Shown: positions 1 through 2,238 of the stretch, in pieces
How positions within the stretch are numbered: position 1 is the first letter of the stretch
How the letters are laid out: each line of letters starts with the position of its first letter
NCBI GenBank assembly: GCA_028279305.1
Contig: JANQOA010000249.1
Span: forward strand, 1-32,928
Reading direction: 5' to 3'
From: Pseudomonadales bacterium
GTDB taxonomy: Bacteria; Pseudomonadota; Gammaproteobacteria; Pseudomonadales; Azotimanducaceae
DNA: 32,928 nt
Program-made: the position numbers and the translations under genes
The notes under the pieces: generated by a model
Seen by the model: the letters and a program-made list of their open reading frames with translations, nothing else
The model's database searches: none
Told to the model about the DNA's origin: nothing

Positions 1-2238
1 GTCTACCGCCAGGGCTGAATATCCGGCTGCTTCCATGGCGGCTTTAATGTCAGCGGCGTTGCCGTCGCTTAAAGCCACCATGGATCCGCCGCCACCGCCG
101 CCGGTCAGCTTGGCGCCCAGGGCGCCGTGGGCGCGGGCGATATGAATCAGCTCTTCCAGCTCCGGGGTGGAGAGCTGCAGGGCGTTCAGATAGCCGTGAC
201 ACAGGTTCATCAGCTCGCCTAACTCCTGCAAACGGCCGCCCTGCAGAGCGCTGCGCGCGGACTCGGTGAGGGCGGCAATTTGATCGAACAGGCCGTCGTA
301 ACGCGCTGTGGACTGCTGCCAGGCCTGGCGCACCCGCGCCACCGTATCCGCGGTAAGACTTTCCTTGCCGGTCATGCCCACCACCAGGGTCAGAGGCTGC
401 CCCAGTTTCAGGGTGTCAAATTCCGCTTCGTCGTTGCGCCGCTGGTACCACAGCGGCGTGCCGTAAGTGGCCACGGTATTGTCCACGCCGGACGGCGTGC
501 CATGGGCGGCCTTTTCACATTCATACGCCAGCGCGTTAACGCGGCTGTTATTCAGCTGCAGATCAAAGGCCGCATCCAGCGCCCGCAGCACCGCCACCGC
601 AAGTGCTGAAGAGCCGCCCAGCCCCATGGCTCTGGGCACGTGGGGGAATACCTCAATGGTCATGTTGGCGTCCGCCAGGCCCAGATCCGCCAGCAGGGAA
701 GAGAGAATACCGGCCAGTCCCTGGGTATTGGCGTGTACTTTTTGCTCCAGGCCCCAGCGGGGAATCACGATGTTGACGCCGTCACCTTCCTTGCGCACCG
801 CAGCTTCCACTGCCAGCGGAATCGGCAGAGCTATGGCCGGGCGGCCGTAGACGACAGCGTGCTCTCCCAACAGGATAATTTTGCCGCATGCCGAATGGCG
901 CTCCGCGCTTTGCGGGCGGGCCGTGCGGCGGGCCAGGTTGCGCACCAGCTCCCGGGCTTTCCAGACCTTGATTTCACCGGATTCGATCAGACCTTCCACC
1001 ACGGTTTCGAACAGTGCTTCCGGTACGCCCGCGGTGCTGGCCACGCTGCGCGCGTGCAGGTTCATATGATTCTGCTGGATGCCGTTGGTGGACAGCGCGC
1101 GCAACGCTGCGAAGTTCTGCGCCAGGCCCACGGTGCCCATAATCGCCGCCAGCTCCTGGGCGCCGGGGGAACCCAACAGCCGGTGGCTGATGCGCACGCT
1201 CGGGTTGGTCTCCAGCGAGCCGCCCACCGTGCCTACTTTCATGGGAATTTCTATTGCACCCAGCAGGTCACCATTCTGGTCCCGGCGCCAGCGCGTTAAC
1301 CCCCGGTAGCGTCCGTCGCGGGCGGCGTAGGCATGGGCGGCGGCTTCGATGGCGCGCCAGTCGTTGCCGGTAGCCAGCGCCACCGCATCCACCCCGTTCA
1401 TGATGCCCTTGTTGTGGGTGGCTGCCCGGTAGGGGTCAGCCTGGGCCAGGTCGCTGGCCAGAATGATGCCGTCGCGCACCTGCTCGCCGGTATACCCCTT
1501 ACCCTGCAGGTTAGCGGTGGGGATACGTACCTCAGCCCGGGCCAGGGCGCGGTCGGTGAGATTGGACAGAATGCGCAGAAAGACCTGGCCGCCGGTCAGA
1601 GTTTCTACCAGCGAGGCGACCCCCTCGCACATGGAATTCACCAGGTTTGCCCCCATGGCGTCACGGGTGTCCACCAGCAGATGCATGACCACCATATAGC
1701 GGCCGTCTTCCGGGGCCCGGTGGATATAGACTTCGATGTCCAGGGCGCCGCCGCCGCGGGCCACCATTTTCGGATGCAGACTGTTAGCCAGGGCAAGGAT
1801 ATCTTCGCGGTGCGCCAGCAGCGTGTCGCGGGCCTGTTGCGGGTTGTCCTGCAACACCGCCTGCACCTGGCCGATCAGGATCGGTTCGCTGGCGGAGGCC
1901 GCATAACCGCCGCCCAGCCGGGCCATGCGCGCGGCGCCGGACAGGCCCGCCACAATAGACGGCTCTTCCACCACCAGTGGAATGACGTAGTCGCGGTTGT
2001 TGATGAGAAAATTCAGCGCCACCCCCATGGGCAGGCCAAAAACGCCGACAACATTTTCAATCATCTTGTCAGCCACATTCAGCTGCAGCTGGTGGTTGGC
2101 GCTGACAAGGGCCTGAACATCCTCCGCGGTCAACTGGCCGTGGCGGTGCAGGGCGGCGATACGCTCGCTGATACTCATGCGGAAGAAATTTGCGATGCGG
2201 GAACTGCCGGCGCGTTCAGCTTCCGGTTCGGACGCCAT
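1..2238 (-). CDS. HMG-CoA reductase (class II) - mevalonate kinase fusion, C-terminus cut by window edge
   Basis: Would catalyse two consecutive cytosolic steps, HMG-CoA to mevalonate and mevalonate to 5-phosphomevalonate. I read 746 codons from the ATG at 2236-2238 to base 1 without a stop. Residues 1 to about 440 match class II HMG-CoA reductase (Pseudomonas mevalonii type): ENVVG at 61-65, VVEEPS with catalytic Glu at about 92, THNKG with Lys277, GNDW with Asp293, and His391 before MNLHAR. From about residue 447 a GHMP kinase begins: GKIILLGEHAVVYG, then MGLGGSSAL, then GTPSGVDN with catalytic Asp586, then LTGGGGGGS. This is mevalonate kinase, nearly complete at the edge. Only about 10 residues join the halves. 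The start overlaps the phosphomevalonate kinase gene by 23 nt, so translation is probably coupled; GGAG lies about 10 nt upstream. Met21 (2178) is an alternative start with no visible ribosome site. The fusion is unusual; both domain assignments are firm. Confidence 0.95.
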   Translation of the reverse strand, partial: MASEPEAERAGSSRIANFFRMSISERIAALHRHGQLTAEDVQALVSANHQLQLNVADKMIENVVGVFGLPMGVALNFLINNRDYVIPLVVEEPSIVAGLSGAARMARLGGGYAASASEPILIGQVQAVLQDNPQQARDTLLAHREDILALANSLHPKMVARGGGALDIEVYIHRAPEDGRYMVVMHLLVDTRDAMGANLVNSMCEGVASLVETLTGGQVFLRILSNLTDRALARAEVRIPTANLQGKGYTGEQVRDGIILASDLAQADPYRAATHNKGIMNGVDAVALATGNDWRAIEAAAHAYAARDGRYRGLTRWRRDQNGDLLGAIEIPMKVGTVGGSLETNPSVRISHRLLGSPGAQELAAIMGTVGLAQNFAALRALSTNGIQQNHMNLHARSVASTAGVPEALFETVVEGLIESGEIKVWKARELVRNLARRTARPQSAERHSACGKIILLGEHAVVYGRPAIALPIPLAVEAAVRKEGDGVNIVIPRWGLEQKVHANTQGLAGILSSLLADLGLADANMTIEVFPHVPRAMGLGGSSALAVAVLRALDAAFDLQLNNSRVNALAYECEKAAHGTPSGVDNTVATYGTPLWYQRRNDEAEFDTLKLGQPLTLVVGMTGKESLTADTVARVRQAWQQSTARYDGLFDQIAALTESARSALQGGRLQELGELMNLCHGYLNALQLSTPELEELIHIARAHGALGAKLTGGGGGGSMVALSDGNAADIKAAMEAAGYSALAVD

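Follow-up and report, generated by a model that had tools for sequence, protein, structure and literature searches.

A class II HMG-CoA reductase joined to mevalonate kinase in one reading frame, common in a family of Pseudomonadales

In the window analysed here, an entire contig of 32,928 bases from a Pseudomonadales bacterium, HMG-CoA reductase (HMGR) and mevalonate kinase (MK) are encoded in one open frame. A first-pass annotation had proposed this reductase–kinase fusion, and our analysis confirmed the observation and supported the reading: both halves score above curated cut-offs, and the same frame is present in dozens of assemblies. We estimate a probability of about 0.9 that the fusion is a genuine bifunctional enzyme of isoprenoid biosynthesis, predicted from its sequence to convert HMG-CoA to mevalonate and mevalonate to 5-phosphomevalonate.

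The fused frame, its two halves and the linker

Bases 1–2238 of the minus strand form a single open reading frame of 746 residues, which starts with ATG, contains no interruption and is still open at base 1, the end of the contig (Table 1). The full-length relatives in a 39-row alignment indicate that the C-terminus lies 1–5 residues beyond the contig end, in agreement with the earlier remark that the window stops just short of it. In the Pfam search, PF00368 (HMG-CoA_red) matched residues 23–396 (4.5e-104 over the whole protein), and the GHMP kinase domains PF00288 and PF08544 matched residues 515–592 and 662–740, respectively. In the NCBIfam search, TIGR00532 ("degradative" HMGR) matched residues 5–396 with 400.1 bits against a curated cut-off of 259.95, and TIGR00549 (mevalonate kinase) matched residues 450–723 with 242.9 bits against 163.05. 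No thiolase domain was matched in the fusion protein by either Pfam or NCBIfam.

Table 1. Features of the fused frame and the two adjacent pathway genes (positions in the window)
Feature	Position	Strand	Basis
HMGR half, residues 1–436, class II	931..2238	-	PF00368/TIGR00532; alignment with solved HMGRs; E92, K277, N281, D293, H391; dimer motif ENVVGVFGLP; flap domain
Linker, about residues 437–446, variable in sequence and length	901..930	-	Column identity, spacing, pLDDT
MK half, residues 447–746, GHMP kinase, minus the last 1–5 residues	1..900	-	TIGR00549; L. major MK, 1.7e-42; K453, E459, S543, E575, D586
Phosphomevalonate kinase (PMK) gene	2216..3217	-	PF00288; TIGR01220, 63.9 bits, below the cut-off of 165.7, best NCBIfam match
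Diphosphomevalonate decarboxylase (MDD) gene	3218..4171	-	TIGR01240, 242.6 bits, cut-off 171.35; PF22700, PF18376

In alignments with the five best-matching class II HMGRs of solved structure (423–448 residues long), the similarity to HMGR extends to residues 432–436, so that the C-terminal flap domain is included in the fusion. The similarity to MK begins at residues 449–450 in the best solved MKs, among them that of Leishmania major (2hfs, 1.7e-42). These two limits leave approximately 10–15 residues between the enzymes, and the junction is thus located near residue 447, where it had been placed before. A stop or frameshift at the junction had been set beforehand as one of two refuting outcomes; what was found are whole-length matches in relatives without an internal stop. 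The other, a separate ribosome site and start, was not seen at the sequence level either: no Shine-Dalgarno-like site precedes an in-frame start codon in the window's linker.

Residue conservation was evaluated with 163 fused frames, corresponding to 125 distinct proteins. The class II catalytic set, which we take to be E83, K267, D283, and H381 of Pseudomonas mevalonii HMGR, was mapped through the alignment with solved HMGRs, and its Glu, Lys, Asp, and His are present as E92, K277, D293, and H391. K277, N281, D293, and H391 are invariant in all 125 distinct proteins, and E92 is found in 124 of them, the remaining one having an unread residue (X). In the MK half, K453, E459, S543, E575, and D586 are likewise invariant (125/125); K453, D586, and S543 presumably represent the catalytic Lys, the catalytic Asp, and the glycine-rich loop of MK. 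The initial assignment of Lys277, Asp293, His391, and Asp586 as active-site residues was therefore correctly placed, each being conserved in 125 of 125 fusions. Because decay would be expected to bring variation, the constancy of the checked residues in both halves indicates that neither half has decayed.

Structural elements of class II HMGRs are also retained. The dimerisation element ENVXGX3(I/L/V)P (PMC10070635, in excerpt) occurs in the window protein as ENVVGVFGLP (residues 61–70), and the three-helix flap domain is modelled as helices 387–402, 407–420, and 425–439, the alignment reaching near the end of the solved HMGRs. An AlphaFold2 model based on 44 fused sequences gave a mean pLDDT of 83.8 and a pTM of 0.56. 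Residues 60–69, the stretch that holds the dimerisation element, were poorly modelled, and this stretch would need a partner chain. In the Foldseek search, the HMGR half matched P. mevalonii HMGR (48–51% identity) and the MK half matched the MKs of L. major and Methanosarcina mazei.

The region between the halves is different in character. The spacing between A428 and G452 ranges from 22 to 44 residues across the 125 fusions, and the mean column identity of residues 429–446 is 39%, compared to 65–80% in the other regions (78–80% in the HMGR body and flap and 68–69% in MK). Residues 439–443 have pLDDT values below 50. Since the domain arrangement is uncertain (pTM 0.56), a defined path between the active sites is unsupported; taken together, these data are consistent with two enzymes that fold independently and are connected by a flexible tether, and they lend no support to a fixed tunnel.

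These properties bear on true channelling, which the first-pass annotation had suggested as a possibility and in which mevalonate leaving the HMGR active site would reach that of MK without mixing with the bulk, aided by movement of the flap. The HMGR and MK steps are consecutive, and MK lies directly behind the flap, which moves during the reaction (PMC10070635, in excerpt). All fused frames found have the order HMGR–MK, although this order was also built into the searches. However, the linker varies freely in both length and sequence, and no confident domain arrangement was obtained, in particular around residues 439–443. A loose tether fits the variable linker better than a fixed tunnel does, and we regard channelling in the strict sense as doubtful.

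The variable and poorly modelled linker could also be a site where one frame gives rise to two proteins, through internal initiation or proteolysis. An in-frame ATG, GTG, or TTG is present within the linker in 81 of the 125 fusions. On the other hand, a Shine-Dalgarno-like site 4–10 bases before the linker start codon was detected in only 14 of the 125, is absent from the window, and is not conserved. The unbroken frame is kept among 39 proteins with identities as low as 58%, and the matches in the family show no split form other than pieces on different contigs. The production of two separate proteins is thus very unlikely, and a single chain with two tethered enzymes is the reading we pursue below.

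Gene neighbourhood, isoprenoid route and reaction direction

The PMK gene and the start of the fusion share 23 bases, and the PMK gene is in turn abutted by MDD. Of the 80 named loci, 67 extend 2.6 kb or more upstream and were used to examine this arrangement, the other 13 being too short. PMK adjoins the fusion upstream on the same strand, from overlapping to 300 bases apart, in 58 of the 67 loci, and MDD is located 0.5–2 kb upstream in 56. An adjoining PMK was not found in 9 of the 67, and the PMK–MDD pair was not in the described arrangement in 11. Elsewhere in the window's genome there is a homologue of HMG-CoA synthase, for which PF01154 and PF08540 are above their cut-offs and TIGR01835 gives 170 bits (cut-off 360).

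Other neighbours were observed as well. An amidase gene (4183–5640, minus strand) has the same orientation as MDD and is located 11 bases upstream of it, and an amidase-like frame was seen by eye before MDD in two relatives (L031 and L035). The hpnH gene follows the fusion in Dyella monticola (L093:8906-11259) and in the metagenome-assembled genome (MAG) REEB218 (L106:6027-7175), with HpnH scores of 533 and 541 bits, respectively, and the Dyella locus also carries an HpnB-like gene just below the cut-off. The position of hpnH hints at a link to hopanoid synthesis in these two.

The distribution of the MEP route was compared with that of the fusion. DXR, the MEP reductoisomerase, was found in none of 37 genomes of the genus versus all 21 genomes from other families of the order. 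Within the family, 73 of 120 genomes have the fusion, 37 have DXR, and none has both; these counts come from two draws of 120 genomes that, as far as the listed negatives show, are apparently one and the same. The corresponding p value of 4e-22 takes no account of how closely the genomes are related, and we do not count it as evidence. GcpE was absent from 24 of 24 fusion genomes and present in four of four DXR genomes, and LYTB was absent from two of two fusion genomes and present in two of two DXR genomes. The neighbouring PMK and MDD genes together with the missing MEP genes suggest that the fusion belongs to the one isoprenoid route that can be seen in its genomes.

If the two draws are identical, 10 of the 120 family genomes have neither the fusion nor DXR. 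Four genomes of the family (G042, G050, G055, and G843; estimated to be 91–100% complete) gave no match to GcpE, LYTB, HMG-CoA_red, or MVD-like_N and are not among the genomes with DXR or the fusion. A switch between the fusion and the MEP route thus does not account for every genome. With the gene families searched, none of these four shows a known route to isoprenoid precursors.

The residues at the cofactor site provided insight into the direction of the reductase. The NADH-selective HMGR of P. mevalonii uses Asp146, and the staphylococcal, enterococcal, and streptococcal HMGRs have Tyr146, Pro147, Ser148, and Arg152 (both PMC10070635, in excerpt). In the alignment with solved HMGRs, the counterparts of residues 146–148 and 152 in the window protein are His155, Pro156, Lys157, and Arg161. 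The pattern at 146–148 among the 125 fusions is HPK in 87, HPN in 15, HPQ in 14, HPR in 6, HLR in 2, and NPN in 1; position 152 is Arg in all 125. The NADH-type Asp was found at position 146 in none of the 125 fusions, all of which have His or Asn there.

For comparison, 31 rows of solo HMGRs were scored with the model of the fused HMGR. Seventeen rows (16 distinct genes, 410–489 bits) all have the Asp and none has the Arg, and are taken here as the degradative type. Thirteen rows (270–373 bits), most of them near a solo MK, all have the Arg and none has the Asp; the remaining one (L151) is too divergent to read at this site. From the absence of Asp146 and the presence of Arg152 we infer NADPH preference and the biosynthetic direction: the fused HMGR probably prefers NADPH, and the NCBIfam label "degradative" is probably misleading for it.

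That label nevertheless has some basis, and the HMGR half could accordingly be thought to run from mevalonate to HMG-CoA. The TIGR00532 match is strong (400 bits against a cut-off of 260), the best structural matches are to P. mevalonii HMGR (48–51% identity), and the fused HMGR model scores the NADH-type solo HMGRs higher than the others (410–489 versus 270–373 bits). Against this, MK is fused to the reductase, PMK and MDD are usually adjacent, the searched MEP genes are missing from the fusion genomes, and the cofactor residues are of the NADPH type. We reject the degradative reading as highly improbable and retain the biosynthetic one.

Occurrence and origin of the fusion

The fusion is common in its own family and scattered elsewhere. 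In a sample of 97 genomes, which includes the window's own genome and overlaps in part with the named-genome set described below, 51 genomes gave a match: 40 with both halves in one frame, seven with the halves in separate pieces, and four with weak kinase matches only. Most of the seven, G009 aside, have their pieces at contig ends. In the own genus, 36 of 40 genomes are positive, and the four without a match (G007, G013, G029, and G032) are 70–82% complete. The 120 genomes of the family gave 73 matches. In 70 of them a single frame carries both halves; in G057, G879, and G882 the fusion is broken into pieces, one of which lies at a contig start in every case. Apart from such pieces on different contigs, no split form was seen among the family matches. 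The 70 include a longer fused frame of 809 residues matched in two stretches (G850, C11:2402-4741). One genome, G922, carries two copies of the fusion (C162 and C191).

Among named genomes, the fusion is in one frame in all of the best 80 of 538 relatives. Strain-titled records with the fusion include Dyella monticola, Wenzhouxiangella sediminis, Rhodanobacter lindaniclasticus, and Marinobacter gelidimuriae. By NCBI lineage, 72 of these 80 loci belong to Gammaproteobacteria, including Pseudomonadales, Rhodanobacteraceae, Wenzhouxiangellaceae, Nevskiaceae, Marinobacteraceae, and Arenicellales; the other eight comprise two Alphaproteobacteria, two Pseudomonadota without a class, one Calditrichota, one Actinomycetota, and two without a lineage. 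Five loci from MAGs (L110, L120, and L125, assigned to KSB1, Calditrichaeota, and Nakamurella; L107 and L123, assigned to Rhodospirillales) represent either true transfer or mis-binned contigs.

Wider draws gave fewer fusions. In a class draw of 369 genomes, 106 matched at E ≤ 0.001, and nine of these, including the window's, matched over the whole fusion. The class-draw matches at L128 and L131 include one stop each; both loci nonetheless hold a whole fused frame. At L136 the contig end cuts the fusion inside the HMGR half, and the remaining matches cover one half only, many of them weakly. A phylum draw of 398 genomes gave 16 matches at E ≤ 1e-30, of which two were fusions, namely, the window's own and that of G822. 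Of 72,556 plasmid records, 44 matched, none of them with 80% query coverage at a single location; among these, the 15 that were listed match the HMGR half only. The pairwise identity of the fused proteins is 58–99% among 39 distinct proteins and goes down to 49% against the window protein.

An assembly chimera or a frameshift artefact, conceivable for a gene cut by the contig end in a draft genome of 399 contigs with an estimated contamination of 6.56%, is rejected as practically impossible, since dozens of other assemblies contain the fused frame (it was found in 40 of the 97 genomes, 70 of the 73 family matches, and 80 of the best 80 named loci).

In a tree of the HMGR part, built by a quick method from 72 rows (42 fusion representatives at less than 80% identity and 30 solo HMGRs), all 42 fusion rows fall on one side of a single branch with an SH-aLRT of 99. 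The outgroup L151 and the solo HMGR L198 are on very long branches with odd composition, which leaves the root unsure; the fusion row L135 is also long. In a tree of 60 kinase rows, the fusion MKs group together but for one PMK row inside, and two changes were counted. The intruding row is fragmentary (24% of columns filled) and on a very long branch, and the starred branches force only one change. In both trees, L110 groups with L120. The simplest reading of these trees is one ancestral fusion. Against the model of the fused MK, the best stretches of solo MKs from other Gammaproteobacteria reach only 47–113 bits, and no donor of the MK half was found among them. A recent join within the window's genome was also considered and rejected, as a single HMGR branch unites the fusions and the free-standing HMGRs and MKs that were compared lie far from them.

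Proposed mechanism and relation to known systems

We propose that the N-terminal class II HMGR would reduce HMG-CoA to mevalonate at the dimer interface, probably with NADPH, that the flap would then open and release mevalonate, and that the tethered C-terminal MK would phosphorylate it to 5-phosphomevalonate with ATP. The neighbouring PMK and MDD would complete the route to isopentenyl diphosphate. The HMGR half would form the usual intertwined class II dimer, with one MK behind each mobile flap on its flexible tether. The benefit may lie in fixed stoichiometry and co-expression, and a high local concentration of the kinase would pull the reversible reductase step forward and limit the loss of mevalonate. 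In our judgement, equal dosage and the forward pull are quite probably the main gain. Both activities, the use of NADPH, dimerisation, and the advantage of tethering are what we infer for this protein. A more far-reaching proposal is that a single ancestral fusion produced a self-driving enzyme, in which the flap-mounted MK captures mevalonate upon flap opening and makes the reversible reduction effectively one-way, and that this module replaced the MEP route in several gammaproteobacterial lineages and spread between them; we consider this extended scenario speculative and improbable.

Each half belongs to a well-known family, and within the open-access literature the new part is their fusion. 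Like MvaE of Enterococcus, a natural fusion of acetoacetyl-CoA thiolase and HMGR (PMC10070635, in excerpt), the window protein is a single bacterial chain in which a class II HMGR is linked to a second enzyme of the mevalonate pathway. In MvaE, however, the thiolase, which acts two steps upstream, is on the N-terminus of HMGR, whereas here the next enzyme, MK, is behind the C-terminal flap. The HMGR of P. mevalonii (1qax; TIGR00532) shares the fold, the catalytic residues, the dimer motif, and 48–51% identity with the fused reductase, but its 428-residue chain consists of HMGR only, and it uses Asp146 for NADH (PMC10070635, in excerpt). The fusion carries MK and never has this Asp, its sequence being His-Pro-Lys...Arg at positions 146–148 and 152 in 87 of the 125 members. 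The fused kinase resembles the solo GHMP-type MKs (TIGR00549; L. major 2hfs, the best solved match, and M. mazei 4hac) over the whole domain and in the checked residues; it differs in having no gene or start of its own and is far from the solo MKs of other Gammaproteobacteria (47–113 bits). IspDF of the MEP pathway likewise holds two enzymes of one isoprenoid pathway in a single chain (PMC13001223, in excerpt), but the IspD and IspF steps are non-consecutive and belong to the other pathway, whereas those of HMGR and MK are consecutive.

The earlier statement that no reductase–kinase fusion had been characterised agrees with the open-access full-text literature: among the matches listed, no paper names an HMGR–MK fusion. 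In the available part of its enzyme table, a 2026 review names MvaE and IspDF as two-enzyme proteins and no HMGR–MK protein, and the same source calls HMGR the rate-limiting enzyme of the pathway (PMC13001223). The fusion is presumably present in public databases under HMGR names. It also exposes an annotation problem, in that a "degradative" HMGR model matches a protein whose context and cofactor residues indicate biosynthesis.

With a conserved fusion of HMGR and the next enzyme, proximity and channelling can be tested directly for the mevalonate pathway, and the fusion is a ready-made part for isoprenoid engineering. For the family itself, the fusion marks a switch between two isoprenoid routes, no sampled genome having both markers.
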